Shown: positions 13,167 to 62,135 of the stretch, one piece after another
Layout of the letters: the number at the start of each line of letters is the position of its first letter
How positions within the stretch are numbered: the first letter of the stretch is position 1
Assembly: GCA_013815385.1 (NCBI GenBank)
Contig: JACDGL010000007.1
Span: 124,001-188,000, forward strand
Direction of reading: 5' to 3'
DNA from: Taibaiella sp.
GTDB taxonomy: Bacteria > Bacteroidota > Bacteroidia > Chitinophagales > Chitinophagaceae
Length of the DNA: 64,000 nt
Position numbers and translations under genes: made by a program
The notes under the pieces: model-generated
Databases searched by the model: none
What the model was told of the DNA's origin: nothing
What the model saw: only the letters and a program-made list of their open reading frames with translations

Positions 13167-14042
13167 ATGAAAATATTCATAAGTTGGTCAGGTGAATTAT
13201 CAAAAAGTATAGCAGAAATTTTACGGCAATGGATACCTGGTGTAATTCAAGCGGCTAAACCATATTATTCACCGGATGACATTACTAAAGGCACCAGATG
13301 GAATACAGAAATATCTAAAGAATTAGACGCATCAAAAGTTGGGATAATCTGTTTAACAAAACAGAATTTAGAAAGCCCGTGGATTATGTTTGAGGCTGGT
13401 GCATTATCTAAAAACATAGAGAAATCAAAAGTAGTTCCACTTCTTTTCGGAATTGAGCCATCTGATATTCAAGGTCCTTTAGTACAATTTCAGGCAGCCA
13501 AATTTTCGAAATCTGAAATGAAAAAGGTTATCAAAATGATTAATGCAGAATTAGAGGATAATTCTCTAGCTCCAGATGTTATAGACAACGTTTTTGAAAT
13601 GTGGTGGCCAAAGCTTGAAAGTCAAATAAAAGAAGCAGAAGAAAAAGCTAGAAGCACTAACAATAAAGATGTAAGATCGGAAAGAGACTTATTAGAAGAA
13701 GTACTCACTCTTACCAGAGATTTATCAATAACAAGAAGATTTGAAAAGGGACGCTCTTTAAATCCTCGAATTTTTGAAGATATGATTAATTCTATCGAAA
13801 GGCTTCTAGAAGAAATCCTTAGAAATAATTATACAGATTTGCTAGATTATCTAAAAGACCTTTATCGACCACTAGAGTACTTAATTGAAGAAAGCATGGT
13901 AATAGAGCCGGGTTTTAGAAAAGAATTATATTCTAGATTTAGGAGAGCGAGAATGCAAATGGATGAAGTAAGTTTTCCAGAAAATAGAATTGGAAAAACT
14001 CGGAGATCAAAGTTAGAAGAGGATAGATCTATAAAAGAATAG
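13167..14042 (+). CDS. TIR domain protein, third gene of the operon
   Basis: Residues 1-150 are a TIR_2 domain of a widespread bacterial type: KIFISWSG at the start, SPDDITKGTRWNTEI, GIICLTKQNLESPWI, MFEAGALSK. Glu76 in FEAGAL is at the position of the catalytic glutamate of TIR NADases. Residues 150-291 are helical with a basic C-terminus and match nothing I know; they may be an oligomerisation or sensing domain. Bacterial TIR proteins often deplete NAD+ on phage infection. It follows the previous gene by 14 bp, so the three are probably one transcript. Confidence 0.85.
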   Translation: MKIFISWSGELSKSIAEILRQWIPGVIQAAKPYYSPDDITKGTRWNTEISKELDASKVGIICLTKQNLESPWIMFEAGALSKNIEKSKVVPLLFGIEPSDIQGPLVQFQAAKFSKSEMKKVIKMINAELEDNSLAPDVIDNVFEMWWPKLESQIKEAEEKARSTNNKDVRSERDLLEEVLTLTRDLSITRRFEKGRSLNPRIFEDMINSIERLLEEILRNNYTDLLDYLKDLYRPLEYLIEESMVIEPGFRKELYSRFRRARMQMDEVSFPENRIGKTRRSKLEEDRSIKE

Positions 14043-14051
14043 ATTCTTCAA

Positions 14052-14159
14052 CAATTGCAACTGTCCAATGTATTCTTCAAATGTCCTTGGGTTGAGCCAG
14101 AAGTGCATGTAATACAGATGGAACTTGCAATCGCGCTCACCAACTAATGCCTTATGGAC
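14052..14159 (-). pseudogene. Possible coding remnant directly behind the fpg stop
   Basis: In frame after the fpg stop, the minus strand reads HKALVGERDCKFHLYYMHF and continues WLNPRTFEEYIGQLQLLKN, a protein-like stretch rich in aromatic residues. It has no start and runs into the TIR gene. It could be a scrap of a gene cut when the TIR operon inserted. I cannot name the family, and chance is not excluded. Confidence 0.3.
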
Positions 14160-15321: not shown

Positions 15322-15384
15322 AGCGGTACAAAGTTAAATAACCTGTTGGATATGACGAGGGACTTTGCTATTTATCCCTCGCGA

Positions 15385-15606
15385 GAGGTACTAGTGGTGT
15401 ATTTGTGCTTCGCGGGATTGCTTCGTCGCAAAGCCTCCTCGCAAGGACGATGCCGGGAAAGCGAAGGGTACCAGTGATGTATTTGTGTATCGCGAGATTG
15501 CTTCGTCGCAAAGCCTCCTCGCAATGACGGCGCGCGAAGGGTAAAAGAAACGAGTGGTGTATTTGTGTTCGCGAGATTGCTTCGTCGCAAAGCTTACTCG
15601 CAACAG
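15385..15606. repeat. 80-bp tandem repeat array (three copies) carrying the REP-like core
   Basis: The anchor AGTGGTGTATTTGTG (one copy AGTGATG...) occurs at 15393, 15473 and 15553, exactly 80 bp apart. Each unit contains ATTGCTTCGTCGCAAAGCCT, the reverse complement of the core in the 5.8-6.5 kb array, followed by CCTCGCAA. The array ends 4 bp before the NRPS stop codon, so it occupies the whole 3' flank of that gene. Frames running through it are not genes. Confidence 0.9.
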
Positions 15607-24659: not shown

Positions 24660-25271
24660 TTACCTGATCTCCACATTAAGCACCTTATTGCCCTGCAGGT
24701 ATCCTTCCAGTTGGTCATGTACAGTTACAGGGCCTACGCCCGCCGGGGTACCTGTATAGATAAGATCGCCTATGTTCAATGTAAAGAACCTGGATACATA
24801 AGCTATTATCTTATCTATACTGAACAGCATGTTCTTTGTATTTCCATCCTGCACTATCGTATCATTCAACTTTAGCTGGAAAGAAAGATCATTGACATTG
24901 GTACCTTCATTAACCGGAATAAATGACCCAACTGCTGCCGAACCATCGAATGCTTTGGCTATCTCCCACGGCAGGCCTTTCTTTTTCTGTTGTTCCTGCA
25001 GGTCGCGAGCAGTAAAATCCAGCCCAACACTTACTTCATTATAATATTTATGGGCAAACCGCTCATTTATATACTTCCCATTCTTAGATAGCTTCACGAC
25101 TACTTCGCACTCGTAGTGCAGGTCGTCAGTAAACTCGGGGTAATACAAAGGTTTATCGGGCAGGAGCAAAGCATTTTTTGGCTTCATAAAAATAACCGGC
25201 TCCTTAGGCACCTCATTATTCAATTCTTTAGCGTGTTCGCTGTAATTTCGGCCGATACAGATTATTTTCAT
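24660..25271 (-). CDS. Fumarylacetoacetate hydrolase family protein (YcgM/FAHD1-like)
   Basis: Short FAH-superfamily enzyme of 203 residues, similar in size to FAHD1/YcgM acylpyruvate hydrolases. It starts MKIICIGRNYSEHAKEL; VIFMKPKNALL and the metal-binding set YECEVVVKL (two Glu) with GLDFTARDLQ (Asp) are clear. IYTGTPAGVGPV closes the active site. The likely activity is cleavage of acylpyruvates or decarboxylation of oxaloacetate with Mg2+. The 16-bp gap to the divergent thioesterase gene means their promoters overlap. Confidence 0.88.
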   Translation of the reverse strand: MKIICIGRNYSEHAKELNNEVPKEPVIFMKPKNALLLPDKPLYYPEFTDDLHYECEVVVKLSKNGKYINERFAHKYYNEVSVGLDFTARDLQEQQKKKGLPWEIAKAFDGSAAVGSFIPVNEGTNVNDLSFQLKLNDTIVQDGNTKNMLFSIDKIIAYVSRFFTLNIGDLIYTGTPAGVGPVTVHDQLEGYLQGNKVLNVEIR

Positions 25272-25287
25272 AGAAAGCGGATTAAGA

Positions 25288-25731
25288 ATGGCGCGTGTAA
25301 AAATAAAATTTCCTGATGATAAACCCTTGTACCATTGCACAATACCTGTGCGGATAGGTGATATCAACTACGGCGGGCATGCAGGCAATGATTCGCTGCT
25401 ATCGATAATACATGAAGCCAGGGTACAGATGCTGGCCCACTGGGGATGGACCGAACTGGACGCAGGCGGCAACAGCCTGATAATGGCCGACGTAATGATC
25501 GCCTACCGTGGAGAGGCATTTTACGGTGAGGTACTGCATGTGACCCTATTTGCAGATGAAGTAACCACGCAGTCTTTTGACCTATTGTATAAAATAACTA
25601 CTAGTAAGGATGGCCAACCCAGGGAGATATTGCATGCGAAGACGGGAATGGTATGCTTTGATTACCAGACCAGAAAGATAGCGGGAATGGAACATCAATT
25701 GCGTGAAAGATTAAATAACGCAACGGCTTAA
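25288..25731 (+). CDS. Acyl-CoA thioesterase, 4HBT hot-dog family
   Basis: A 147-residue hot-dog protein with RIGDINYGGHAGNDSLLSII, the 4-hydroxybenzoyl-CoA thioesterase-type active-site region (Asp, Gly-His, Asn). It hydrolyses an acyl-CoA or acyl-ACP; chain specificity cannot be read. It is divergent from the FAH gene and stands alone on the plus strand. Confidence 0.85.
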   Translation: MARVKIKFPDDKPLYHCTIPVRIGDINYGGHAGNDSLLSIIHEARVQMLAHWGWTELDAGGNSLIMADVMIAYRGEAFYGEVLHVTLFADEVTTQSFDLLYKITTSKDGQPREILHAKTGMVCFDYQTRKIAGMEHQLRERLNNATA

Positions 25732-25738
25732 ATATAAT

Positions 25739-25769
25739 AATGAAGCGCTGCTCTATAACAGCGCTCCAT
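25739..25769. terminator. Inverted repeat between convergent genes, probable bidirectional terminator
   Basis: Arms AGCGCTG / CAGCGCT with an 8-nt loop, extended by AATG/CATT after one mismatch. No strong T-tract on either side, so termination is probable but not certain. Confidence 0.55.
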
Positions 25770-25788
25770 TACAGAAGATCATTAAAAA

Positions 25789-26052
25789 CTAATTAAGGAT
25801 GATCATTTCGGGTTTGCTGATGACACCTGCCTGCTGCATGGTTTGCTGCAGATCGGGATCGCTCATCATCTTATCAATTGCAGATGTATCTGCAACTTCC
25901 CAAATCATATAGGCCATCCCGGGGTCATCGTGGCGCTGACCTACGAATATTTCTTTCATACCTGCATTTTCTCTTCTTGCCTTATCAGAATCGTAACCCT
26001 GTTTCCAGGTATTGTAGTCTGTAACCTTGTGGTTTAAAATAACTGTAGCCAT
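25789..26052 (-). CDS. Small dimeric alpha-beta barrel-like protein, 87 aa
   Basis: The pattern ATVILNHKVTDYNTWKQGYD, a helix, then MAYMIWEVADTSAIDKM and PEMIILN fits a single ferredoxin-like domain of the antibiotic biosynthesis monooxygenase (ABM)/Dabb type. Such proteins act on diverse small molecules or have no known activity. No catalytic residues are evident. It is a single-gene unit. Confidence 0.6.
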   Translation of the reverse strand: MATVILNHKVTDYNTWKQGYDSDKARRENAGMKEIFVGQRHDDPGMAYMIWEVADTSAIDKMMSDPDLQQTMQQAGVISKPEMIILN

Positions 26053-26132
26053 AGTTTTTTTTAATTGTGAGAAAACAAAGTACAGAATATTTTACATTGT
26101 TACTATTAAGAACATGTTACCAGAAAAAATCT

Positions 26133-26891
26133 TTAAATACCTGGATCGATATATTCATTTAACATCAGTAAATTATTCAACGCATCGCCCATTGTATTGT
26201 TGAAATAAGCATATACTGTTTTACCCTGCTTCATCCATTTTTTTATGCTCACTGCATACTGTTGCAACACATCGTGCGTGTAGCTGCCACGATAACCCTT
26301 TTCGGGGCCGTGAAAACGCAGATATATAAAACTTGCCTTACCAGCATCATGCATATCCCAAGTACCCCCTGCCAGATCGTGCTGCACTATACCTGCCTTA
26401 TATTCTGCCAGTACATTAAATACTTCCTCACAATTCCAATAGGCATTGCGAAACTCCACGGCTACCTTCCACGCATTACGGGTATTTAACTTTTGCATCT
26501 GTCCTAACAGACGGTTCACTTCACCCAAATTACGGAATGAGAATGACGGAGGAAACTGTATTAGCAGGCAACCTTTTTTATCCCCTATCCTATCCACTGC
26601 CTGAAAGAACTTATGCAGGTAGGCCGCATCGTAAATAAACCCTTTGGCGTGGGTTATATCTCTTGACAGCTTGAACGTGAACCTGAAATCATCCGGTACA
26701 CTTAACCCCCATTTTTCCACCGTGGCCGGCTGAGGGATCTTGTAAAAGGAGCTATTGATCTCTACAGAATTAAACAAGGATGCATAATATGCTAGCCGCG
26801 ATTTATCCTGATACTCGGCGGGGAAAGTGTACTTAGGCCCGGGTAGTACCAGGTTGCTTGTGCCTGAATAAAATTTTCCTTTAGGTTTCAT
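26133..26891 (-). CDS. DUF72 domain-containing protein
   Basis: A 252-residue TIM-barrel-like protein of the YecE/DUF72 family: FYSGTSNLVLPGPKYTFPAE, NSVEINSSFYKIP, FKLSRDITHAKG, and a late WDMHDAG and YLRFHGP. The family is widespread, without an assigned reaction; a nuclease or sugar-related role has been suggested. Length matches. Alone on the minus strand between ABM-like and DUF3224 genes. Confidence 0.9.
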   Translation of the reverse strand: MKPKGKFYSGTSNLVLPGPKYTFPAEYQDKSRLAYYASLFNSVEINSSFYKIPQPATVEKWGLSVPDDFRFTFKLSRDITHAKGFIYDAAYLHKFFQAVDRIGDKKGCLLIQFPPSFSFRNLGEVNRLLGQMQKLNTRNAWKVAVEFRNAYWNCEEVFNVLAEYKAGIVQHDLAGGTWDMHDAGKASFIYLRFHGPEKGYRGSYTHDVLQQYAVSIKKWMKQGKTVYAYFNNTMGDALNNLLMLNEYIDPGI

Positions 26892-26930
26892 AGAGGTACC
26901 TATGGTACATTATCATTCCACAGCAGAACA

Positions 26931-27329
26931 CTATTCTGTGTCGGGGAGGTCATATTCAAGATCATACCGGTGCTTGCCTTCTGCCCTGATGATAATGAGC
27001 TTGCCGCTGATACCTGTCAATTCATCGGTACCAGAGTCAGGGACCACCTGTATATTGAGCGTTCCTTCCCCTTTGTTCATTGTGGCGCTATGCTGCAACA
27101 CAAAGCTGCCACGTCTGCCATGCAGTACGCCTTCTACCCTTTCTATGGCTACATAACCTGCTGAATTAGTTACTGCCGTACCAGTGCTAAGCATCTGTCC
27201 CTGGCTAGTGCCGGTAAGGTCTCCATTAAATTCCTTATCAATCGTCATACGCCCGAAAAGGGGAATGGTGCGTTCGTCTGTTTGGGGGAGGATCTTTACT
27301 GTAAATTCTCCTGTTGCGTGTGTGGACAT
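26931..27329 (-). CDS. DUF3224 domain-containing protein
   Basis: A 132-residue beta-barrel protein of the DUF3224 family (allene oxide cyclase-like barrel): ATGEFTVKILPQTDE, GRMTIDKEFNGDLTGTSQG, RRGSFVLQHS, VVPDSGTDELTGISG. Function unknown. Start chosen at MSTHATGEF, where the family begins; the upstream extension has no similarity. Confidence 0.87.
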   Translation of the reverse strand: MSTHATGEFTVKILPQTDERTIPLFGRMTIDKEFNGDLTGTSQGQMLSTGTAVTNSAGYVAIERVEGVLHGRRGSFVLQHSATMNKGEGTLNIQVVPDSGTDELTGISGKLIIIRAEGKHRYDLEYDLPDTE

Positions 27330-27552
27330 GGTGGTATTTTTTTTTAATTCTGGTCGTATTCCCATACTTTGGCTTAGACCAAAAGTACCAAAGCGGGGGA
27401 GGAATAGCAAACTCAATAGTGTATATTGGAAGTTATCCGGGACCGCAGTACTGCTCGTCTGTTACTTTTTCCATGCAGAATAAAAGACTTTAAACCTAAC
27501 CCTTGTTATTTCCATAGCTGAGATTTTTAGACATTAAATAATCACCATGCTA

Positions 27553-28080
27553 TCATTTCCTTATCCGGATAACCTTTACAAAACGGGCCATGTAGCGGTC
27601 ATTGAGTTTTGTGATGATGACTGCATTCTCTTTGCCTGAAGATGCATGTATAAAGCTGATGCCCGAAGTATCGTGCGCTACAATGAGGCCCATATGACCA
27701 ACCGTACGGATATTGCTATTGGTACCTGTAAACAGAATAAGGTCTCCGGGGAGGGCATCAGCAAGCGGTACAGGAGTACCTTCATTTGTAAAGTCTACAG
27801 AAGACCGGGGTACATCCATATTAAAATGATGGAACACATAGTTAATGAACCCGGAGCAATCAAACCCGGCAGACGGTATGGTGCAACCAAATTTATAAGG
27901 TGTACCTATAAGTGTTTTGGCAAACACTACCACCTGTGCAGCCAGCACCGAATCTGTAGGCACTACCGGATGAACAAAAACTAGCGGTAGGCGGGGAGTA
28001 TCAACGATGGTGGGCGGCAGCCGCACGGGGGTGGGCCTACACGAGACAAACAATAGCAAGATAAGATAGCTGTAACGCAT
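27553..28080 (-). CDS. NlpC/P60 (C40) peptidoglycan endopeptidase, lipoprotein
   Basis: Cuts the gamma-D-glutamyl-diamino acid bond in cell-wall stem peptides. An N-terminal lipobox (LLFVSC, Cys14) anchors it to a membrane, then a Pro-rich linker leads to the catalytic domain: Cys75 in GFDCSGF, His129 in VGHMGLI, His145 in IHASSG. The triad is complete. At 175 residues it is a minimal single-domain enzyme without SH3 domain. Confidence 0.9.
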   Translation of the reverse strand: MRYSYLILLLFVSCRPTPVRLPPTIVDTPRLPLVFVHPVVPTDSVLAAQVVVFAKTLIGTPYKFGCTIPSAGFDCSGFINYVFHHFNMDVPRSSVDFTNEGTPVPLADALPGDLILFTGTNSNIRTVGHMGLIVAHDTSGISFIHASSGKENAVIITKLNDRYMARFVKVIRIRK

Positions 28081-28244
28081 ACCCTAAAGTAAACAAAATC
28101 GGTCCACCCCGCCCATATAGGGCGGAGATTTGTAAATACCGATAGCAGAACCCGTCGCAATTATGTAATGTTTGCACAGAATTGTGTAAGGATGCAGCAG
28201 CGCAATGAGCCTACCTTTAGGCAGTTAACCAAAAAAGTATAAGA

Positions 28245-28850
28245 ATGAGAAAGTTTATAATGCTGAGCTGTTTGCTGATAGCCGTGCTGAGCAATACCAG
28301 TCATGCCCAAATGAATAATGGCAACAATATAATGACGCAACCACTGTGGGGACCTGTGGGCTATGACTATGTAGAATATTATTACCTACCTGATATTGAT
28401 GCCTACTACAATGTACCTGGCGCTCAATATGTGTACCTGGATAAAAAGCACTGGGTAATTGTAAAGGACCTACCCCTGCGATATAAGAACTTTAATTTTT
28501 ACGGCGCGCACAAAGTGGTGATGAACGAGCCAAAACCCTATATGAATTACCGTGCAAATAAGGTGAAATATGCACAGTACCGCGGCCAGCACGACCAGAT
28601 AGACATACGCGAAAGCCACGACCAGAAATACCTGGCCAAGGCAGACCATCCTGAACATGGCAAATGGGTATCGCCCCAAGATATGCAGGACCAGCAGAAC
28701 AGGCAAAATGAACAAAACAGGGTGACGGCACAAAACAAGCAGGACTCACTAAACAGGGTAAACCTGACCAATGCAGAGAATCAGCATAATGCGCAGGATA
28801 TGCAAAACAGGCAGCAGCTGCAAAACAACGAGAATAGCCACAAACATTAA
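28245..28850 (+). CDS. Secreted protein with Asn/Gln-rich tail, 201 aa
   Basis: A signal peptide (MRKFIMLSCLLIAVLSNTSHAQ) precedes a tyrosine-rich region (DYVEYYYLPDIDAYYNVPGA) with the WVIVKDLPLRYKNF segment also seen in other Bacteroidota periplasmic proteins. The last 60 residues are highly charged, rich in Gln and Asn and probably disordered. Function unknown. A strong terminator follows within 20 bp. Confidence 0.7.
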   Translation: MRKFIMLSCLLIAVLSNTSHAQMNNGNNIMTQPLWGPVGYDYVEYYYLPDIDAYYNVPGAQYVYLDKKHWVIVKDLPLRYKNFNFYGAHKVVMNEPKPYMNYRANKVKYAQYRGQHDQIDIRESHDQKYLAKADHPEHGKWVSPQDMQDQQNRQNEQNRVTAQNKQDSLNRVNLTNAENQHNAQDMQNRQQLQNNENSHKH

Positions 28851-28870
28851 AACAACATTTTACTTTAGTG

Positions 28871-28898
28871 AAAAGCCGCTGTAATAGCGGCTTTTTTG
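28871..28898 (+). terminator. Rho-independent terminator
   Basis: AAAAGCCGCT / AGCGGCTTTT stem with a 5-nt loop and six T. It serves the secreted protein upstream and, as a stem, may also work for the convergent reductase. Confidence 0.9.
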
Positions 28899-28912
28899 TT
28901 TTAGTTCTTTTC

Positions 28913-29470
28913 TTATTGTTTCACATAATGAAGCGCTATACAGCCTGAACTGAATACCTTAGACGCTACAAGTTTTAACTGTTGCTTTTCAGGCAGATTG
29001 ATGCCCTTTAATAACCGCGTTCCTTCACCTGCTACTATGGGATGAACAACAAAACGGTACTCATCTATCAGGTCCAGCTCTATCAATTGTGATGGGAGGT
29101 GCACCCCACCGGTGAGCATATATTTACCGGGTTGCTGTTTTAGCTTCAGTATCTCGTTTTTAAGATCGGTATTAATGATAGTCGTTTTGCTATCGTCCAC
29201 CTTGCCTAAGGTGTGTGAAAAAACTACTTTGCTGGTGGAATCGAACACCTGCGCAAAATCGTTAAGGGCTTTGTTAGGGGCAGAATGGTTGCGGGCCATG
29301 TCGGGCCAAAAGGGGACCATCAGTTCATAGGTCTTACGGCCGTAAACGAGCAGGCCAGCATCGCGTATCAATTCGGTGAAGTAGTTGTGCACTTCTTCAT
29401 CGGGATTGCCTACAGTATGGTCGCAGCAGCCGTCTAAGGTTATGTTGGTGGAGAATATGAGGTTTCTCGT
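28913..29470 (-). CDS. Dihydrofolate reductase family (RibD C-terminal-like), no normal start codon
   Basis: A 185-residue reductase domain: LIFSTNITLDGCCDH at the N-terminus, LLVYGRKTYELMVPFWPD, YMLTGGVHLPSQLIE, HPIVAGEGTRLLKG. The family reduces pteridine-like or other substrates with NADPH. The expected N-terminus (RNLIFSTNITLDG) is intact, but the codon where relatives have ATG is ACG (minus strand 29470-29468). The only upstream in-frame codons before a TAA at 29488-29486 are non-ATG. A GTG at 29392 would drop the first strand and most of the cofactor site, so it is unlikely to give a working enzyme. Confidence 0.75.
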   Translation of the reverse strand, partial: TRNLIFSTNITLDGCCDHTVGNPDEEVHNYFTELIRDAGLLVYGRKTYELMVPFWPDMARNHSAPNKALNDFAQVFDSTSKVVFSHTLGKVDDSKTTIINTDLKNEILKLKQQPGKYMLTGGVHLPSQLIELDLIDEYRFVVHPIVAGEGTRLLKGINLPEKQQLKLVASKVFSSGCIALHYVKQ

Positions 29471-29487
29471 AGGTTGTTTTTGAATTT

Positions 29488-29598
29488 AAACTTGCACTAA
29501 TATACTCGTATTACTTCTACTTTTGGCTTGATCCATCCAGATTGCTTAAAACTAAGAAAAACGAAATCAGATGAGGATGGAGGAATAAAAGAATAGAG
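29488..29598. other. Spacer upstream of the reductase
   Basis: Short AT-rich spacer holding the reductase leader; no gene is seen. Confidence 0.4.
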
Positions 29599-29601
29599 TT
29601 C

Positions 29602-29697
29602 TCAAAACAACGGCAACTGCCCGTTCTTTATCCGCCTGAAATCTTTGGTGTTCCATTCCATCTCCGTTTGGTTGAGGCCATAGCGCTTGCAGTATAG
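29602..29697 (-). pseudogene. Duplicated 3' end of the radical SAM gene
   Basis: The segment 29599-29694 matches 33065-33160 with 4 differences in 96 bp and no indel. It encodes the last 30 codons and stop of the radical SAM protein (ending KNGQLPLF). All four differences are synonymous (Pro, Arg, Asp, Asn codons). There is no start and nothing upstream of the fragment, so it is not a gene. It marks the far edge of the SPFH module. Confidence 0.9.
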
Positions 29698-29752
29698 TGC
29701 ATAGAGTTTTTACTCACCAAACTAAAAAGCGCTTACGCATTCTTATATACCA

Positions 29753-30475
29753 CTATTTTTTCTGAAACATATTTACCAGTAGGCACAGGGCAAAAAACAA
29801 TATTACCCCAATCAGTATTTTCATTCCTTTCGACATTCCTTTTTTCGAAGGTGCCTGCTGCACAGGTACGCTCTGCTGCAGCATACCTGCGGGCATCTGC
29901 GCCATCTTATTATATGCATTCATTCCATGCATGCTCATTCCGGAATTAACAGACTTGTTAGGTATCGCCTCATCAGCATGTGTAACAGGCTTACCATTTA
30001 CAAAAGTTTTAGTTTGCGTATTGGCATGGGTTACAACTTCTTCATGGACATTCGCTTTAGAACCAGTCTCACCGCTTTTATTGCTGGTGTCATCATCCTG
30101 GTCATCATCTTCAAAGTCATCATTATCGTCGTCATTATCACCACTCCCTATATCATTATCCTCAGCCGATGCAGTTTGTCCGTTTGTGAGCGTGTTGCTT
30201 TTTGTGGTCTTATTAGTTTGGGTATTGGTAACCGTATGAGTAACGGTATTTGTGGTTTTTACATTTGGGTCGTTAGCATCAAAAGCCGGCATGTGCTTCA
30301 TCGTATTGCCAATCTGCGCTTGCATTTCTGAGAATTGCTTTTCAAAATTTGCAAAACCGGCAGCGAGGTCATTGCTATCATTGTTGCCACTGTTGTTATC
30401 ATCTGGCGTATTTTTTTGCATATCGGATATCTGTTGCTGGGCTTTATCAAAAAAGTCGTTAGTGTTATCGCTCAT
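29753..30475 (-). CDS. Tail-anchored acidic low-complexity membrane protein
   Basis: A 240-residue protein without signal peptide. The N-terminal 180 residues are Asn-, Asp- and Thr-rich and probably disordered, including an almost pure Asp/Glu stretch around residue 115-128. The sole membrane helix is at the very C-terminus (KILIGVILFFALCLLVNMF) followed by QKK, so it is a C-tail-anchored protein facing the cytoplasm. It is the last gene of the SPFH/Tim44-like module, 33 bp after its neighbour. Function unknown; probably a membrane adaptor of the complex. Confidence 0.75.
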   Translation of the reverse strand: MSDNTNDFFDKAQQQISDMQKNTPDDNNSGNNDSNDLAAGFANFEKQFSEMQAQIGNTMKHMPAFDANDPNVKTTNTVTHTVTNTQTNKTTKSNTLTNGQTASAEDNDIGSGDNDDDNDDFEDDDQDDDTSNKSGETGSKANVHEEVVTHANTQTKTFVNGKPVTHADEAIPNKSVNSGMSMHGMNAYNKMAQMPAGMLQQSVPVQQAPSKKGMSKGMKILIGVILFFALCLLVNMFQKK

Positions 30476-30508
30476 AGCTTGCTGTTTTTTTGGTATGAAA
30501 TAAAGCGT

Positions 30509-31909
30509 TTAAATATCAAATTTTACAAGTACCCAGTTAACATCTTTATTAAGCACCGGGGCACCGCAGTATTCGCATACATCGGTAGTGGTATCCTTGT
30601 ACGGCGCGCCGCACGAACTGCACTCGAAGCTAAACACGGTTTCTTTATCACTGATCTTGAACCGCGTAGCACGTGCCAGGTACAAGGTACAATCGCTGGT
30701 GACCATCTGTGCATCCAGCAGGCGCATCTGCCCCGTGCCATCTATCCTGCGATAGGTGACGGTGAGGCCAAATTCCATTATGGTAATATCGCTTCCTGCT
30801 GTATAATTGTTCAACGTTACGTCATTAAGGAACAGCCGGTCGAACAGTACCGGACCCTGTGCCTGCCTCATCAGCATTATTTCTTCCACAACATGCGCGT
30901 CTGCAAAACGGCTTAGGTGTATGGGGTCGGCACCGCTTAGCACATTCATCACCTGCATAAATATATTAGAAGCTATATCCTCCACGCATTGCACCGCAAA
31001 GAAAGGATCGTTCTGCAGCGATGTTACCAGGTCGCGGTAGTCTGGTTCATTTTCATCATAGTCTTCGCCTTGGGTTATTTCGCTCAGTATCCAGTCGTAG
31101 GTGGCATTGTTGGTAAGGGTATTGCAATTACTACAACGGCTTATCTCGCCCATCTTTGTTTCGAAGAGCGCGCCGCAATTAGGGCAGTTGGCATTATCGT
31201 ACAGGTTTTTTTCCTGTTCGCTGCCTATGCGTTTTATAAATGTCCAGTACTCTGCCGCTGTATCATCTTTATATTTCTCATCCAGTTGGGGCAATGTGGC
31301 GCTGGTAAACGAGTCATCCATAATAAAACCGATAGCCACATCCGCTATCTCGTAATTGCCCGATATCCCCAGCCGCGCTACTTTTATATTCTTTATCCTG
31401 ATGTTGCTCAGTATGTTTTTTTGCTTCAGGGCATTCATCATTTTTATCTGCAGTGTCAGGCGCTGGTACATGCCGTCGCTAAGCCATTTGCGCACCTGCT
31501 TCAGGTCCTGGATTTGCCAGGCATTTTGTATGGCAAGAAAGGCGGCAGCTATTTTTTCAGGATCTAATCCCGGCGGGAATGGGAACTGTTCTGCCGGCAT
31601 TGCATCTGCTATTTCCTGTTCCATAGCTTTGCGTCTATTCTTTCGGCGGGAAACAATAATGAACGGACTTGCAATAACTAATGTAATAACCAGTACGGCT
31701 AACGCGCCGCCCGGCCCCATACCTCCACCACCAGAGCTGCTGCTACTATAGTGACCATAGCTACTACTACTGCTATAATGACTTGAGGAATGCGAACCAC
31801 TGCTGCTATGGCCGCCGGCACCGCCCACTCTTGCGGTGGCAGACGGTGCAGCACAACTGCTTAGTGCCAATACTATAATGAAACACTTCAACCTAAATTT
31901 TCCAGACAT
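30509..31909 (-). CDS. Tim44-like membrane protein with zinc ribbons
   Basis: A 466-residue protein. An N-terminal lipobox-like signal (VLALSSC) or membrane helix is followed by a Gly/Ser/His-rich stretch, a strong helix (LAVLVITLVIASPFIIV, near 70-86), then a Tim44-like domain (from AAFLAIQNAWQIQDLKQVRK). Two zinc ribbons follow: CPNCG...CSNC near 240 and CSSCG...CEYCG near 440. Tim44-like domains bind membranes and partners. It sits 4 bp downstream of the SPFH gene. The set recalls the Bacillus subtilis ydjGHI membrane-stress genes; that parallel is inference. Confidence 0.8.
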   Translation of the reverse strand: MSGKFRLKCFIIVLALSSCAAPSATARVGGAGGHSSSGSHSSSHYSSSSSYGHYSSSSSGGGGMGPGGALAVLVITLVIASPFIIVSRRKNRRKAMEQEIADAMPAEQFPFPPGLDPEKIAAAFLAIQNAWQIQDLKQVRKWLSDGMYQRLTLQIKMMNALKQKNILSNIRIKNIKVARLGISGNYEIADVAIGFIMDDSFTSATLPQLDEKYKDDTAAEYWTFIKRIGSEQEKNLYDNANCPNCGALFETKMGEISRCSNCNTLTNNATYDWILSEITQGEDYDENEPDYRDLVTSLQNDPFFAVQCVEDIASNIFMQVMNVLSGADPIHLSRFADAHVVEEIMLMRQAQGPVLFDRLFLNDVTLNNYTAGSDITIMEFGLTVTYRRIDGTGQMRLLDAQMVTSDCTLYLARATRFKISDKETVFSFECSSCGAPYKDTTTDVCEYCGAPVLNKDVNWVLVKFDI

Positions 31910-31913
31910 GCTG

Positions 31914-32999
31914 TTATTGTATAGGGGGTGGAACGTTATTGAAATGATCTGCCAATTCGGCCACCGTTTCCGCTTTGCCCCATGCTGCCATACCTGCTTT
32001 CCACACCAAGGTTTCCCGCACTATGGTACCAGCCTGCATCATCTGCTGTATCTGTCCGGCATCATAGGGGCCGTTTTGCTTCCCATCAGCGGCGGTGAAG
32101 TATTGCGTCAGCGGGGGTGGCATGGTTGCCTGTTCCTGCTGCTTTTGGTTTGCCTGGTTAAAAGCGTTCGAAAGGATATTACCATAGCCTAACCCAACGC
32201 CAATACCGATGCTGGCACCCGTCATTCCGGGGTTAGCAGCAGCAGTTTCTATGCTGTTAGCAACTTTCCACTGGGTATATTTCTGTATATCAATGGTGTT
32301 GATACGCGAGTATTCGAATATCTCTTTCTTCAGATCGTCCGGCAGTGATACATTCTCTACCACAAACTTCTTTATCTGCAACCCATACTCCGTAAAGTCT
32401 GTGACCAATTTATCCTGTATAATAGACGAAAGTGCATCTGTGCTGCCGGCCAGCTTATCTATCGGCAGATTGCCCGACGTAGCCGCACTGGTAAAATGCG
32501 AAACAATTATGCTTCTTATCTGTGCACCTATTTCGTCAGTTGTGTACTCGCGGGCTACCCCGGCCACTTCCTGCAAAAATTTTCCGGCATCCGCTACTTT
32601 GAAAGCGTAGGTGCCAAATGCGCGAAACTCAATAAGGCCAAATCGCGCGTCAGATATAGTGATGGAATTTTTAGTCCCCCACTTCTGATCTATGGCCTGT
32701 CGGGTGCTTACAAAAAAAACTTCCGATCTGAAGGGGCTGTCAAATCCATATTGCCAGCCTAACAGCTTACTTAGTATCGGCATGTTCTGGGTGTGTAGCG
32801 TGTACATCCCTGGCTGGAATACATCTGCTATCTGCCCTTTATTAAGGAATACCGCCTGCTGCCCTTCTCTTACGGTCAGTTTGGCGCCCATCTTTATCTC
32901 ATTATCAGTGGGGAACTTCCATACTAACAAGTTAGGATCCTGTTCAGGCCATTCTACAATATCAATAAGCTCATGGCGTAGCTTTTCAAAAAGTCCCAT
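31914..32999 (-). CDS. SPFH domain protein with C-terminal GYF_2 domain
   Basis: A 361-residue protein. Residues 1-270 are an SPFH domain of the YdjI/virion-core type: MGLFEKLRHELIDIVEW, LLVWKFPTDNEIKMGAKLTV, FRAFGTYAFKVADAGKFLQ, YSRINTIDIQKY. A short Gly-rich linker follows, then a GYF_2 (DUF4339) domain (QYFTAADGKQNGPYDAGQIQ ... LVWKAGMAAW), a proline-peptide-binding fold. YdjI-like proteins assemble on membranes with PspA in Bacillus. I start at MGLFEKL; the longer frame would enter the radical SAM gene. First gene of a three-gene operon. Confidence 0.88.
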   Translation of the reverse strand: MGLFEKLRHELIDIVEWPEQDPNLLVWKFPTDNEIKMGAKLTVREGQQAVFLNKGQIADVFQPGMYTLHTQNMPILSKLLGWQYGFDSPFRSEVFFVSTRQAIDQKWGTKNSITISDARFGLIEFRAFGTYAFKVADAGKFLQEVAGVAREYTTDEIGAQIRSIIVSHFTSAATSGNLPIDKLAGSTDALSSIIQDKLVTDFTEYGLQIKKFVVENVSLPDDLKKEIFEYSRINTIDIQKYTQWKVANSIETAAANPGMTGASIGIGVGLGYGNILSNAFNQANQKQQEQATMPPPLTQYFTAADGKQNGPYDAGQIQQMMQAGTIVRETLVWKAGMAAWGKAETVAELADHFNNVPPPIQ

Positions 33000-33067
33000 A
33001 GGTATAAAGTTGAGATTAAATTTAATGTTCCATTTCAGATTATGAAAATTTTCCAGATTAATTTTTC

Positions 33068-34141
33068 TCAAAACAAAGGCAACTGCCCGTTCTTTATCCT
33101 CCTGAAGTCTTTGGTGTTCCATTCCATCTCCGTTTGATTGAGGCCATAGCGCTTGCAGTACAGGTGAAACTGGTCGCGTATCAGCTCGGCAAATTTGCCA
33201 TCGCCCACTATACGATTGCCAAAGCGGCTATCGTTCACCTGGCCATCGTGGCAGGCGCTTATCTGGTTCCATACTTTTTCGGCACGGTCGGGGAAGGCCT
33301 TGTGCAGCCAATCGTGGAAGATGGGGCCTATGGCGCCATTGAGCCGTACCACCGTGTAGCCCGCCCACCGCGCACCGGCCTCTGATGCGGCCTTGAGCAC
33401 TGCAGGCATGTGCATATCATTGAGCCCCGGTATCAGTGGGGCATTCATGATGCCGGTGGGCACACCAGCCTTCGATAGTGTCTCCACCACCTTGAGCCGC
33501 GAACGGTAGGAGGCGGTACGCGGCTCCAGCACACGGCGCAGGTCTTCATCGAGCGAGGTAATGGAGGAGAACACACGCACCAGGTTGAATTTATTGAGCT
33601 CCTGTATCACGTCTATATCGCGCAGCACCAGAGCATTCTTAGATAGGATGCTAACGGGGTTGCGGTACTCGAGGCATATCTCCAGCAGCTTGCGGGTTAT
33701 GCGCATCTTGCGCTCTATGGGCTGGTAGCAATCAGTATTGCCCGAAAGGGAAATAACGGCAGGCTCCCAGTTCTTGTTCTCAAAAAATTTCTTCAGCAAC
33801 TGGGGCGCGTTCTTCTTTACTATTATTCGGCTCTCGAAATCTACACCCGCACTGTAGCCCCAATACTCGTGCGAGTTTCGGGCATAGCAGTAGATGCACC
33901 CATGCTCGCAACCCTGGTAGGGATTGGCAGAGTACATCATGCCCACATCAGGGCTCGTAACGGTATTCACTAGGGACTTGCTCTCGTCGTATATATATTC
34001 TGTCTTGCGCTCTTCCTGCTCCCAATCGTCTATGGCCTCTACATGCTCCTGCACATACTGCCCCTTCAGGAAACGGTTCTTGGGATTGAACTGTGCACCC
34101 CTGCCCTTCTCAAATCTATCGTTCGCCTTTTGGTTGATCAT
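33068..34141 (-). CDS. PA0069 family radical SAM protein
   Basis: A 357-residue radical SAM enzyme related to spore photoproduct lyase. The 4Fe-4S motif is CEHGCIYCYAR near residue 78, preceded by SANPYQG. The SAM-binding strand GNTDCYQPIE and the C-terminal GRY-like KRYGLNQTEMEW are typical. The reaction is unknown; a nucleic-acid repair role has been proposed from kinship. It lies 21 bp downstream of the Y-family polymerase, likely in the same transcript, which favours a DNA-repair role. Confidence 0.9.
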   Translation of the reverse strand: MINQKANDRFEKGRGAQFNPKNRFLKGQYVQEHVEAIDDWEQEERKTEYIYDESKSLVNTVTSPDVGMMYSANPYQGCEHGCIYCYARNSHEYWGYSAGVDFESRIIVKKNAPQLLKKFFENKNWEPAVISLSGNTDCYQPIERKMRITRKLLEICLEYRNPVSILSKNALVLRDIDVIQELNKFNLVRVFSSITSLDEDLRRVLEPRTASYRSRLKVVETLSKAGVPTGIMNAPLIPGLNDMHMPAVLKAASEAGARWAGYTVVRLNGAIGPIFHDWLHKAFPDRAEKVWNQISACHDGQVNDSRFGNRIVGDGKFAELIRDQFHLYCKRYGLNQTEMEWNTKDFRRIKNGQLPLF

Positions 34142-34162
34142 TGGTCATTTTTGATTTATGAT

Positions 34163-35632
34163 TTATTCATCTTCTTCCAGCAGGTATTTATTCACAAGGT
34201 CTCCGTTGACCCCTACCATGTCTTTTACAGAGCCGAAGCCAATGGCATCTTTCATCACGCCATCTTCTACCAGCTCAGCGCCTTTGCGTACTATGTTCTT
34301 ACTGTACTTGTCCTTTATATCGTACATCGCCTTGCGCAGTACATCATGGCGCATGCGGTTATCAAAAAGGCTGTACTGCATACAGTTCCCCTTCATAAAA
34401 TCTTGTACGCCTACCCCTATCATCTGTACATTGCTGTTAAAGAGATGGGCGATGTTGTGGCCCTGCTCGTAGCTGTGCATTTGGTTAAGGATGTGGCGGC
34501 GTATCTCTATGGCATCCTGCATAGCGTGGGGCAGGCCTATCTTCACATCCCACGATGTGCCATTGCGATACCTTATAAAACACCACGCCTCGCGGCAAAA
34601 AACACTCTGCTTTACCATGCGCTGCTCCAGCCGCGTGCACAGGGCTACCAGCAATGACTCCATGGTCTGCAATGACTCCCGCTGCGGGCGCGACACCGTG
34701 CGCTGCGCACTCATGGTGCGGTTCTCCCCGCTATACAGGTCTACCTCGCCAAAGTTGAGGCGGGCATGCCAGTAGTTACCCACCACGCCACCAAATGCCT
34801 TGCGCAGCAGCGCAGCAGAAGCGTGGCGCATCTCCAGGGGTGTTTTAATGCCCACGGTGGTAAGGCGGTGCGCATTGCGCGTGGCTATGCCAGGCAGGTC
34901 GGTAAGCTGCAGGCGTTGCAGATAGCTATCTATATTATCAGGGGTCACGCGTATCAGGCCGTCGGGCTTCTGCAGCTCCGTGCCCAGCTTGGCCAGGAAG
35001 GAATTGGGGGCTATGCCTATGCTGCATTTCAGGTAGTCGTACCGGGCGGTTATATCATCCTTTATCTGCCGGCCCAGGGCCATAGGGTCTTTATACACCC
35101 AGCGGTACGAGGTCAGGTTCATCAAAGCCTCGTCAATACTTTTGGCTATCACATCATCGCAATACTTGCGCAGTACGCCTATGATAAAGATGTGTATGGC
35201 ACGATACACAGCAGGGTGCGTGGTGATGGGGATGATGTGTGGACAATACTGGCGGCACTCCATAAGGCGCATGCCTGTCTTCACGCCAAATTTCTTTGCC
35301 TCCCCCGATGGCGCTATCACCGCGGCATTAGGACTATCGTAGGTAACCACACCTATGGGCTTGCCGCGCAATTCGGGGTGCATCTGCTGCTCGCAGCTGG
35401 CAAAGAAGCTGTTCATGTCAATATACATGACAAGGCGCTCACTGTCCTTTGCAATATCGTTCTGGCGGTAGCCGGGTTTCTTATGCTCCTGCGCTGTTAT
35501 TTCCTTTTGCTCCTGCGCCTTCCTTAACTGCTCCAGGTGGCCTGCTACTTCCCATTGCTCCAGCTCATCGGCCTTCTCCCCCTGCTGCGGCAATGCCTGG
35601 CCTTTAAAAAGGTGGGGATTGTATTCAGACAT
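34163..35632 (-). CDS. Y-family DNA polymerase with N-terminal extension
   Basis: A 489-residue translesion polymerase of the DinB/UmuC group. Catalytic motifs: YIDMNSFFASCEQQ (first Asp), SIDEALMNLT (second Asp and Glu). The Phe-Leu usual after SIDEA is here Leu-Met. The finger/palm continues SIGIAPNSFLAKLGTELQKP, then the helix-hairpin-helix LTDLPGIATRNAHRL and little-finger domain, and a 60-residue C-terminal tail. The 65-residue N-terminal extension before the first catalytic Asp is unusual. I start at MSEYNPHLFKG. A palindromic operator lies just upstream. The next gene is the radical SAM protein. Confidence 0.88.
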   Translation of the reverse strand: MSEYNPHLFKGQALPQQGEKADELEQWEVAGHLEQLRKAQEQKEITAQEHKKPGYRQNDIAKDSERLVMYIDMNSFFASCEQQMHPELRGKPIGVVTYDSPNAAVIAPSGEAKKFGVKTGMRLMECRQYCPHIIPITTHPAVYRAIHIFIIGVLRKYCDDVIAKSIDEALMNLTSYRWVYKDPMALGRQIKDDITARYDYLKCSIGIAPNSFLAKLGTELQKPDGLIRVTPDNIDSYLQRLQLTDLPGIATRNAHRLTTVGIKTPLEMRHASAALLRKAFGGVVGNYWHARLNFGEVDLYSGENRTMSAQRTVSRPQRESLQTMESLLVALCTRLEQRMVKQSVFCREAWCFIRYRNGTSWDVKIGLPHAMQDAIEIRRHILNQMHSYEQGHNIAHLFNSNVQMIGVGVQDFMKGNCMQYSLFDNRMRHDVLRKAMYDIKDKYSKNIVRKGAELVEDGVMKDAIGFGSVKDMVGVNGDLVNKYLLEEDE

Positions 35633-35670
35633 ATTTGCCCTGCAGCCGGTCATGACAGCAAGGTAGTAAA

Positions 35671-44266: not shown

Positions 44267-44338
44267 GTCTGAAACCCTTTTGTTATTCTGTGGAAGCACA
44301 CGGGTTCGAACCGCGGACCCTCTGCTTGTAAGGCAGAT
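44267..44338. other. Left attachment-site-like repeat (3' part of tRNA-Val)
   Basis: A 72-bp stretch identical to 62112-62183. It contains the 3' 48 bp of tRNA-Val (half the anticodon arm, variable loop, T arm, acceptor strand) and 24 bp of downstream sequence. The match ends abruptly at 44338, within the anticodon stem, so this is a fragment and not a tRNA gene. It is best read as one end (attL or attR) of an element integrated in the tRNA gene. Confidence 0.85.
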
Positions 44339-50392: not shown

Positions 50393-51808
50393 TTATTTTT
50401 TCAACGCAGTCAGTTCTTGTCCACCCTGATATAATATTAATTTCACCACTTTCCCTTTTGCGTCTTTTACAAATTCAAACTCGGCCCTATCCTGCTTCGA
50501 AATAAACCAATTGTTACTGACAGGTAAAATAACTCCTTGAGGCTGACCAGTACCTTGGGTATAAATTTTTCCATCATCAACTGTCACCATAAGCGTAAAC
50601 CCAGGAAACAAGGAATATTCCCCTGCGTAAGAATGAAGAATTTCATCATTTACGTTAACAATAGGCTTTGCAAAACGTTGTGAATACTCAGGCGTTTTTT
50701 CAATGATAGAACGCAAAATTTTGGTCATAGCAGTCGAAGTGGTATTAGAATTTTTAGTATTCAGCATTAAAATAAATGCCAGGTCCTTTGCTTTGTCAAA
50801 AACCATTAAACTGGAATATCCATAAGTATCTCCACGCATTACATAAACATCATCATGGTATAGCTTTGTGATATGCCACCCCATGGCGACATTGACAGGA
50901 CTACCAAGCTGAAGGGCATTATTAGTAGCATATACTTTATGAGTCATTTCAATAGCCTTACTAAATTGAGACCTTTGCCCCAATTGATATCTTAAAAATT
51001 GAAGCATGTCAGTAACATTTGATTTGATAGCACCCGCCGCAGCCAAACCTGAGAATACACCATAAGGCATTCTATTCTCGCCTTCATACCCTTTTGACAT
51101 ATGGATACCGGTAGAATCAAGCTTACAACTTGTATGATTTAACTTCATAGGTATAAACAACTCCCTCTCCATAAGCTCATCATAACTTGTATGATGTAGG
51201 CCCGACAAAACATAACCTAATAAACCAAATGCAGTATTTGAATATGCATATTGACCATGATTATCTAAATGTTCTGTTTTTGATAATAAAGACATCAAAT
51301 AACTACTATCTGCATAATACAATGGATAAGTGGAATCGATCTTATTCAGTTCTACCAAAGATGCTGAATCGTGCAAACTAGGCAGACCCGAAGTATAAGT
51401 TGCAAGGTCCATCACCTTTACTTTTTTTTGTATCGCCTTATTTACAGCAAAATAATCATCTATATATGAATTAGGATTTACCTTTCCTTTCACAATTTCA
51501 TTAGCTAATAGTAGTGCTGTAAATACCTTTGTATTGGATCCAATTTCAAAAATAGTTGAGGTGTCAATCCGGTTTTTTTTATCCTTATCCGCATAGCCAT
51601 AAGAAAAATAATAATTGGAGCCTTTATAATAAACACCCACACTTGCACCAATTATACTAATCATTTTATCAAAACCCTTTCGCCCATAGAATAGAGAATC
51701 TATGGCTCCAGTAGCTATTTGCTCGTTTGTAAATTGGGGAAGAAATTGAGCTTGAACAGAACAGAAGCTAAACAACAAAAAAAAGAAGAAAAAAAATGAT
51801 TTTTTCAT
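50393..51808 (-). CDS. Secreted serine hydrolase (class C beta-lactamase-like)
   Basis: A 471-residue protein. After a strongly hydrophobic signal peptide (FFFFFFLLFSFCSVQA) comes a beta-lactamase/transpeptidase-like domain with SNTK (Ser91, Lys94), YAYSN (Tyr189) and a late HIT-KL segment in place of KTG. The last 100 residues form a lipocalin-like DUF3471-type tail. These enzymes include D-aminopeptidases and esterases rather than true beta-lactamases. It converges on the two-component system (36-bp gap) and may process peptides, but the context link is inference. Confidence 0.87.
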   Translation of the reverse strand: MKKSFFFFFFLLFSFCSVQAQFLPQFTNEQIATGAIDSLFYGRKGFDKMISIIGASVGVYYKGSNYYFSYGYADKDKKNRIDTSTIFEIGSNTKVFTALLLANEIVKGKVNPNSYIDDYFAVNKAIQKKVKVMDLATYTSGLPSLHDSASLVELNKIDSTYPLYYADSSYLMSLLSKTEHLDNHGQYAYSNTAFGLLGYVLSGLHHTSYDELMERELFIPMKLNHTSCKLDSTGIHMSKGYEGENRMPYGVFSGLAAAGAIKSNVTDMLQFLRYQLGQRSQFSKAIEMTHKVYATNNALQLGSPVNVAMGWHITKLYHDDVYVMRGDTYGYSSLMVFDKAKDLAFILMLNTKNSNTTSTAMTKILRSIIEKTPEYSQRFAKPIVNVNDEILHSYAGEYSLFPGFTLMVTVDDGKIYTQGTGQPQGVILPVSNNWFISKQDRAEFEFVKDAKGKVVKLILYQGGQELTALKK

Positions 51809-52260
51809 AAATAGGTTTGAGTACAAAAAGAGGCATAATTTGATCAAATATTTATTTTTTTCGACAAACTATCATAATATATCGACGAAAAAATCGGTTT
51901 TAATTCGGTGAGTAAATCACAACCTTAAGTCTTAGAAGTAGAAATATAATTTTAATGTGCGATCTAAATATTGCACAACGATAATTTAATTGTTAACAAA
52001 AGGTTTGATACTCTTTAATTGTTTGTTTTGGGTAATATAAGCAGGAACATTAAATAGTATCATTACGATTGCGAAAGTAAACAAACTTAAAATAAAAGCT
52101 ATAATTGATGTTATTAACATAATCAAGTATTGTCATACTATTTCATCCTGTCTTATTAAGCTAAACTCTTACTATGTAATAATTTTGTTGTAAATAATGA
52201 CACTTAAATGAATAATACAAACAATAAAATCGCCTATTGTAGGAAATATATCCAGCGGTA
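51809..52260. other. AT-rich intergenic region; one small ORF inside
   Basis: Outside the small ORF listed next, no gene is supported. An AT-rich inverted repeat (ATTTTTTTCG / CGAAAAAAT, 51854-51894) lies just upstream of the serine hydrolase start. Confidence 0.4.
51986..52120 (-). CDS. 44-residue membrane protein
   Basis: Too short for routine calling. It reads MLITSIIAFILSLFTFAIVM, then ILFNVPAYITQNKQLKSIKP and FVNN: one clean membrane helix and a basic tail. The ATG is in frame with a natural TAA, and the strand is that of module B, 140 bp downstream of the DCC gene. Tiny membrane proteins of this type often serve as immunity proteins or regulators next to peptide toxins. No ribosome-binding site is evident, as usual for the phylum. 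Confidence 0.4.
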   Translation of the reverse strand: MLITSIIAFILSLFTFAIVMILFNVPAYITQNKQLKSIKPFVNN

Positions 52261-52626
52261 TTATTCAATAATTTTTAGCTTTTTCAAAATTTTGCTGATT
52301 GAATACCTGTTCTTTGCAACAAAATCATATATACAATCAGTAAAAGTCACGGGCAGCTTGCCAAAAAAAGAAAGGTATTTATAGTTAGACCTAGCCCTTG
52401 AGAATATTGCAAAAACTGCTTTTGATTTATTCATTACCTTTTCGGGAGTAATGCAATAAATAGTATTCAGGTTTACAAAATTTACATTTCTTTTTTTTAA
52501 TATATTTCTTGCTTCTTTAGTTCTAAGGTCATATAAAAGCACCTCATTATCTCTAAGATCAAAAGAAGGAATTCTCAATATAAATGCGCTACAAAAATCA
52601 CATTTACTGTCATATAATATTTGCAT
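52261..52626 (-). CDS. DCC-family thiol-disulphide oxidoreductase, module B
   Basis: A 121-residue protein of the DCC (DUF393) family: YDSKCDFC near the N-terminus is the redox Cys-x-x-Cys motif (DxxCxxC), followed by FILRIPSFDLRDNEV and a C-terminal YDFVAKNRYSI. The family has a thioredoxin-like fold. It overlaps the end of the HTTM gene by 17 bp and is therefore translated with module B. Cytosolic location is expected because no signal peptide is seen. Module A has no equivalent. Confidence 0.8.
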   Translation of the reverse strand: MQILYDSKCDFCSAFILRIPSFDLRDNEVLLYDLRTKEARNILKKRNVNFVNLNTIYCITPEKVMNKSKAVFAIFSRARSNYKYLSFFGKLPVTFTDCIYDFVAKNRYSISKILKKLKIIE

Positions 52627-53551
52627 ATACCAGCTCATTTACTTTAGATTCAGAATATGGAATTTTGATTTTCATATACGGGATATAAAAAGCAGAAACA
52701 CTAAGTATTATCATGAATGTGGAGAAGAGAAACAGGCCTATAAATAATGCAATAGACAAGTGTAATCCGACAACCAGTATCAACCAAATAGGTCTCGTTT
52801 TTTTTATATTTATAAATAAGGGGTATAACATTTCGGTAATAATAGTTCCCCATCCTATTATAAGGAATATCGGAGTGTGAGATAGAAAATCGATATTAAT
52901 AATGTTGGGGCAAAACGATAAATGTATAGACTTCCATATGCTTTCGCCATTCCACCAATTAAAACCAATAAGTTTTAAAAGGCCGCTGAAAAAGTAGGCT
53001 ATGCAAAGATGTATTTGTAGCACTCTCAGGCACAGTACAACAGCTATGGGGTCAGGCTTCTTGTATTTCCCTCTCCTTGTGCGTATAAATGAATCAATTG
53101 ACAAATACCTACCCACTGGGAAAACCACGCAATAAAACAATGCGATCGTACAAAAGAAATCCACCCCGTAAGCAAAAAAATCTATTGATGAAATAAATGT
53201 TAGGTGGAAAAACGCAGCAACTATCGCCATCGGTCTTGTAAAAAAGCCAGCTACCAGGCATAACAATGCAACAATATACATTATGCAGAAATAATTAACT
53301 GCAAAAGATACATCTAGGTATTTGAGGGAAAGGTTATTTAATGTGTTTATGGTTGGAAATATGCCACCAACATGTACATCAACAATGTCTGGTACTACAT
53401 ACGCATTACCACCAATAAAATTGTTGATGTCAGGAATAATTGCAATAAACTGCAATAAACAAAAGGCACTGACGGTAATCCTAAAAAACACTAGCCAATC
53501 AGTATTGCCAGTATTTGAAAAAAAAACGTACTTACTTAATATCTTTTTCAT
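52610..53551 (-). CDS. HTTM (SdpB-like) membrane protein, module B
   Basis: A 313-residue polytopic protein, paralogous to 45148-46101 along its full length: WLVFFRITVSAFCLLQFIAI, LVAGFFTRPMAIVAAFFH, VDFFCTIALFYCVVFPVGR, VLQIHLCIAYFFSGLLKLIG then FNWWNGESIW, and HLSIALFIGLF. Same helix layout as SdpB. I start at MKKILSKYVFF, 10 bp after the SdpA-like gene, which gives the same length as module A; a longer frame overlaps that gene. Its sequence identity to module A appears low to moderate, so the two sets are old duplicates or separate arrivals. Confidence 0.78.
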   Translation of the reverse strand: MKKILSKYVFFSNTGNTDWLVFFRITVSAFCLLQFIAIIPDINNFIGGNAYVVPDIVDVHVGGIFPTINTLNNLSLKYLDVSFAVNYFCIMYIVALLCLVAGFFTRPMAIVAAFFHLTFISSIDFFAYGVDFFCTIALFYCVVFPVGRYLSIDSFIRTRRGKYKKPDPIAVVLCLRVLQIHLCIAYFFSGLLKLIGFNWWNGESIWKSIHLSFCPNIINIDFLSHTPIFLIIGWGTIITEMLYPLFINIKKTRPIWLILVVGLHLSIALFIGLFLFSTFMIILSVSAFYIPYMKIKIPYSESKVNELVYANII

Positions 53552-53561
53552 GCAAATATAT

Positions 53562-54185: not shown

Positions 54186-54252
54186 ATATATATATTTACT
54201 AATTTAATTAAAGAAGGAAGGAGTATAATAGAATACCCCTTCCTTGTTCATA

Positions 54253-54648: not shown

Positions 54649-54939
54649 TTTTTTAAGTTTTAATAGTTATAAAATTGTTTTGTGAAAATTGTTTTTCTTT
54701 GCTTTTCTGTTTTTCTGGCGGCCGCCTTAATTTCAGATTTGCAATACAAACGTACAATGTTGTAATGCCCTATACATCTCGTTTTCGTAATATTTATTCC
54801 AAGCTTTTGAAATAATCATTCCCTGCAAGAATAAGTGTATTATTACTTACTCCAAGTGTTCATGTTCAACCTATTAAAAAATTCAACCAAATTACAATCT
54901 TGCGTAAGTTTTTAAAAAAGAGTAAAAGAATTGAAAACT

Positions 54940-62126: not shown

Positions 62127-62135
62127 GTTATTCTG

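Follow-up and report, generated by a model that had tools for sequence, protein, structure and literature searches.

This locus raises the question of why the 3' end of a radical SAM gene occurs twice, once within an intact gene and once on its own, on either side of genes for an SPFH and a Tim44-domain protein. The window, that is, the whole stretch of 64,000 nucleotides that was analysed, belongs to a genome of Taibaiella sp. (G000), and positions given without a contig or locus name are those of the window. On the minus strand, the gene order is polY, rSAM, SPFH with GYF_2, Tim44, an ORF without family, the rSAM stub and a RibD_C-type reductase. The features of the locus are as follows.

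34163..35653, minus strand: Y-family DNA polymerase (polY), partner of rSAM; IMS Pfam domain; adjoins rSAM in 28 of 30 genomes, this one included
33068..34141, minus strand: intact PA0069-family radical SAM gene (rSAM); NF033668 488.1 bits against a cut-off of 360; Radical_SAM Pfam domain
31914..32999, minus strand: SPFH (Band_7_1) protein with a C-terminal GYF_2; domain search using the longer ORF 31914-33122
30509..31909, minus strand: Tim44-domain protein with zinc-ribbon matches below cut-off; domain search; adjoins SPFH in 5 of 12 SPFH loci
29753..30475, minus strand: ORF without family, acidic as judged by eye; no relative in the searched rSAM and SPFH loci
29599..29697, minus strand: rSAM stub, the 31 terminal codons of a second gene with its stop and a further 3 bp; 94/99 identical to 33065-33163
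28913..29470, minus strand: RibD_C-type reductase; domain search
26931..27416, minus strand: gene that we take to be YceI-like; 3' of SPFH-Tim44 in G085 and G166 too

A partial copy beside an intact radical SAM gene

The intact rSAM gene scored above the curated cut-off of NF033668 and was assigned to the PA0069 family. Its end and the stub form a direct repeat (29599-29697 and 33065-33163) with 94 of 99 identical positions and no indels, the copies lying about 3.4-3.5 kb apart in direct orientation. The initial annotation had described ends of 96 bp, 96% identical without indels and with all four differences synonymous. Both observations were borne out: 29599-29694 and 33065-33160 differ at four positions, and the match extends to 99 bp with a fifth difference (29695/33161), which is likewise synonymous. 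Read in the rSAM frame, four of the five changes affect a third position and one a first position (Arg), and the 31 codons of both ends encode an identical protein sequence. The left copy matched the genome's own intact gene with an E value of 1e-39 (blastn against the fetched loci), which argues against chance, and the full rSAM protein gave two matches in its own genome at E up to 1, namely the intact gene and the stub.

One edge of the repeat lies 3 bp beyond the rSAM stop and the other is abrupt, at 29697/29698. The latter, the edge of the stub, is sharp and non-homologous, and delimits a partial rSAM copy beside an intact one. The stub is probably without present function, and we read the locus as a real, small and local scar, ordinary for gene exchange, rather than as a new type of element. 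No Rfam match was found in 28800-34200. Next to the stub, the reductase (28913-29487) shows ACG at the start position, closely preceded by a stop, where two relatives (L158 and L159) carry ATG; the gene may not be expressed, or translation may begin from an internal GTG (29392).

Selection on the two copies and their relatives

Comparison of the two rSAM copies gave a dN of 0 and a dS of 0.36. The rSAM tail is only modestly conserved between genera, the best outside match reaching 75 of 96 bases among the relatives compared, and its last 31 codons showed dN values of 0.09-0.21 against six near relatives. With kappa of 1-4 and omega of 0.05-0.3, the analytic probability of five synonymous changes out of five was 0.001-0.010 for a copy decaying since the split versus 0.015-0.51 for two functional copies. 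Forward simulations of the rSAM ends were conditioned on five differences and performed with omega of 0.07, 0.15 and 0.25. Under decay throughout, none of the runs remained without amino-acid change (0/139, 0/119 and 0/135, respectively), whereas 38%, 13% and 4% did so when both copies were functional; when decay of the stub was confined to the last quarter or half, the proportion was at most 4%. These data, which comprise only five changes, support the existence of two rSAM genes that were both functional for most of their separate history, until recently. The proposal that the ends diverged as functional genes and not as a decaying duplicate was therefore upheld, the simulations rejecting decay throughout and fitting two functional copies. 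All five changes being synonymous, the pattern is not the one of a decaying duplicate, in which changes are unconstrained by the frame, nor was the same duplicate with non-synonymous changes found in all relatives.

The nearest named rSAM genes came from metagenome records of Bacteroidetes, Sphingobacteriales, Taibaiella and Flavipsychrobacter, and the two copies of the window are far closer to each other than to any relative. The strain that best matches 29599-29694, which the initial annotation had suggested to look for, was sought with a mixed outcome: G116 (79.8% over 94 bp, versus 78.7% for the right copy) and L062 (82.3 versus 77.2%) are nearer to the left copy, but G033 is nearer to the right one (86.5 versus 81.1%), and no single donor stands out. 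No second genome of the genus of this Taibaiella sp. was found.

The two window copies pair in the nucleotide tree of rSAM (the pair itself carrying no printed support), followed by G116 with a support of 100; an import from a distant lineage was disfavoured on account of this pairing. The genome of the window stands with G154 (0.961) and then G116 (0.946) in the rpoB tree, and with G085 (0.926) in the tree of a gene that we take to be trxB-like (trxB). A quick protein tree of rSAM placed the window copy with G033, and a quick tree of polY also departed from the rpoB placement. The histories of rSAM, polY, trxB and rpoB are not clean and the tree placement is not firm. At the five differing sites, G116 is like the stub at three and like the intact gene at two, and G154 is like the intact gene at four and like the stub at none; over all outgroup cells polarity was mixed (85 stub-like, 77 intact-like and 33 neither).

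Neighbourhoods of the SPFH-Tim44 and polY-rSAM pairs

Of the 394 genomes of the family, 55 (own genome included) had an SPFH match with an E value of 1e-40 or less. The orthologs of G166, G085, G240, G169 and G226 share 61-66% identity and are each adjoined by a Tim44 gene, a partner present in five of the 12 SPFH loci. Of 51 named rSAM loci, which had flanks of at most 10 kb, in many cases less, and were often cut by contig ends, none contained SPFH or Tim44 close to rSAM; rSAM was likewise missing from all 12 SPFH loci (many cut by contig ends). In G085 and G166, which belong to one genus, the YceI-like gene lies 3' of SPFH-Tim44 in the same orientation, as in the window; in six others of the 32 relatives searched, it lies elsewhere. 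This neighbour common to the window, G085 and G166 suggests, from the gene order of one genus, that the module rather than rSAM may have kept its old company. GC3 values were 0.52 for Tim44, 0.51 for SPFH, 0.67 for polY and 0.69 for rSAM, the last two being the highest among the window ORFs of at least 200 aa, with a mean of 0.45 for 56 long ORFs drawn from the window and from two further stretches of this genome. The SPFH-Tim44 pair is of ordinary composition, and almost all relatives likewise have an rSAM with more GC than the surrounding DNA. The prediction that some relatives would have the reductase directly beside rSAM was not supported, no ortholog being found there in the 51 named rSAM loci; reductase paralogs (30%) occur near polY in L102 and about 5 kb from rSAM in G116.

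By analogy, the SPFH and Tim44 proteins may have a role at the membrane. In B. subtilis, the SPFH protein YdjI has been reported to be required, with YdjG and YdjH, for PspA to reach the membrane (PMC8581546). In the pspA-ydjGHI operon of this species, the SPFH gene adjoins genes for other stress proteins (PMC8581546). Band_7_1 and Tim44 were found among the three ORFs between the repeats, and PspA was not; the likeness is one of analogy. A literature search returned no paper joining Tim44 with SPFH and phage shock or with Band 7 and zinc ribbon, and none linking partial gene duplication with islands.

The distance between polY and rSAM is 7-372 bp in the 28 genomes out of 30 in which they adjoin; in G371, one of the two exceptions, the contig starts 267 bases before rSAM. 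The order of neighbouring genes is scrambled between genera. Among the fetched loci, rSAM lies head-on to the trxB-like gene at 0.4-5 kb in ten other genomes (G033, G394, G114, G298, G218, L081, L103, G305, G266 and G258). The two genes are within 2 kb of each other in only 7 of the 29 genomes with a trxB match and are separated by about 15 kb in G116, and in the remaining ones, own genome included, rSAM is farther off or on another contig. In the genome of the window, trxB is carried by contig C23, of which the segments 25043-34792 and 50986-57998 are collinear with both flanks of the polY-rSAM pair of G116; the interval between them contains other genes and neither polY nor rSAM. The pair has probably left this site, and rSAM can therefore not simply be called resident at the SPFH locus. 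Inspection of the 29 trxB loci with flanks of about 1.5 kb revealed no rSAM stub, which led us to drop the idea that a vacated trxB locus is regularly marked by a stub; 24 of these loci have no rSAM, an intact rSAM lying just outside in two of the 24.

A comparable stub was found in a second genome (G020), which has an intact rSAM on contig C25 and a 57-codon in-frame stub on contig C20 (L031:9174-9344). The latter differs from the genome's own rSAM at 17 of 171 sites, 12 of them synonymous and 5 non-synonymous (dN 0.037, dS 0.52), and lies 3' of, and facing, two genes that are presumably HGD and HPPD. In L059 and L081, these genes form part of a block HGD-HPPD-F6-F3-trxB (F6 and F3 being gene cluster labels), the trxB end of which is head-on to rSAM. 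Since the G020 stub is found at HGD/HPPD of this block, it may mark an older place of the polY-rSAM pair; trxB and the intact pair are both on contigs other than that of the stub. Beside the stub, visual inspection showed a direct repeat of some 21 nt that is degenerate (L031:9420-9640). When 22 genomes, a subset of those with two rSAM matches, were re-examined, the second matches corresponded to remote relatives (30-41%), fragments of split genes, a pair of copies with equal scores in G261 and the stubs of G000 and G020, and an intact, moderately diverged rSAM pair was present in none of them.

Origin of the arrangement

We hold with moderate confidence that the stub is the remaining 3' end of another rSAM gene of the PA0069 family, which worked until recently and belonged to the same lineage or to one closely related to it, and that it came to lie here when two lineages of this kind recombined their DNA. 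The direct observations are the repeat and its reading frame, differences that are all synonymous, a sharp edge, the lack of the pair at the locus collinear with that of G116 and the comparable stub of the second genome. To explain them, DNA of two closely related lineages, each with a working rSAM, would have met at the locus. Most economically, a single event would have combined a homologous exchange within polY-rSAM at one end with, at the other end, illegitimate end-joining at codon 326/327 of the other rSAM copy, and its product would be polY-rSAM-SPFH-Tim44-ORF-[rSAM stub]-reductase. The lateral step is inferred, and so are the recombination type and the identity of the resident copy; the module may have arrived with the incoming DNA, or the polY-rSAM pair may have moved to a module that was already resident. 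In xenologous gene displacement, a relative's copy replaces a gene and the old copy erodes. The locus would resemble this process if a relative's copy had taken the place of an older, eroding one. One homologous and one illegitimate end, as in homology-facilitated illegitimate recombination (see PMC3240628), can yield an intact gene, new neighbours and a partial copy, as here; for this locus, such a process is suggested by the anatomy. Several points speak against the preferred explanation. Neither parent arrangement was seen, rSAM-SPFH and rSAM-reductase adjacency being absent from the 51 rSAM and 12 SPFH loci; the trxB side is not universal (7/29 within 2 kb), and an extra move is needed because the window stub is not at a trxB locus; finally, the argument is carried by only five differences.

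The initial annotation had proposed an import of the SPFH/Tim44 module, which would have arrived from a related strain together with an rSAM flank of its own and been joined next to the rSAM already resident. One event would then account for both rSAM ends, and the patchy presence of the module (SPFH match in 55/394 genomes, Tim44 partner in 5/12 SPFH loci) is consistent with an import. The meeting of two working genes is retained from this model, but its resident rSAM is weakened by the displacement of polY-rSAM itself, missing from the locus collinear with that of G116, and by the YceI-like gene that accompanies the module in G085 and G166 as in the window. Moreover, the highest GC3 is that of polY and rSAM and not that of Tim44 and SPFH, although rSAM is GC-rich in nearly all relatives, and the donor order was found in 0/51 rSAM and 0/12 SPFH loci. 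This model thus seems possible but rather doubtful to us; the meeting of two lineages that we prefer overlaps with it and makes no claim of a resident intact rSAM.

If two rSAM paralogs had long been functional on either side of the module and one had recently been truncated, without lateral transfer, the outcome would look identical, and would fit both the synonymous-only divergence and the single place of the copies in the rSAM tree; the lack of any intact, moderately diverged pair in the 22 re-examined genomes makes this history improbable. The direct orientation of the copies, 3.5 kb apart, would also be expected from an ordinary tandem duplication of the rSAM 3' end decaying from its origin, an explanation that is hardly credible with 0/393 conditioned decay simulations free of amino-acid change and the low analytic P (0.001-0.010). 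Even less probable is an integrative element targeting and restoring the rSAM 3' end: the cargo is indeed flanked by a repeated gene 3' end, but none of the three main ORFs between the repeats (SPFH, Tim44 and the family-less ORF) is an integrase, 29480-29760 gave no match in plasmid or phage collections at the sensitivity used, and neither the rSAM tail nor SPFH had a confirmed relative in viral contigs.

The all-synonymous stub would be a readable record of two working gene versions meeting in one chromosome. It points to turnover of the conserved polY-rSAM pair, testable across a family with many genomes, and the interest of the locus is limited to that of a possible marker of this turnover. 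As a tentative and rather unlikely generalization, polY-rSAM might be a nomadic repair gene pair of the family, keeping its internal order and re-acquired repeatedly from close relatives at new sites, the older copy being lost save for in-frame 3' stubs from which its replacement could be read and dated.

Other repeats were noted in the window. A similarity of 54 nt (14015-14066 and 29569-29622, 78%, E 0.002-0.003) spans, at one place, the end of a gene for a TIR protein (13167-14042; PADLOC TIR-TM, E 5e-80) and, at the other, the border of the rSAM stub. Its score was reached by 0/500 shuffles; when the stretch near 14 kb was compared with the end of the intact rSAM, the score was reached by 27/500 shuffles with one scoring and by 0/500 with the other. 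With a profile of rSAM tails, 14046-14159 was not among the matches at an E value of 10 or less, the 38 residues of this stretch matched relatives only weakly (E 0.02-0.09), and the relatives of the TIR protein were all distant, in 10/394 genomes, own included; from these searches, a cassette of TIR gene and rSAM 3' end was dropped as weak. The similarity is possibly due to chance. Tandem repeats of about 195 bp were seen at 5816-6538 and 15381-15603, with inverted copies of a repeat of about 42 nt common to both. An exact 72-nt repeat (44267-44338 and 62112-62183) comprises tRNA-Val gene sequence (3' part of 62135-62210) with the adjoining flank, and the two copies bound about 18 kb of mostly low-GC DNA, which resembles a genomic island at a tRNA gene.
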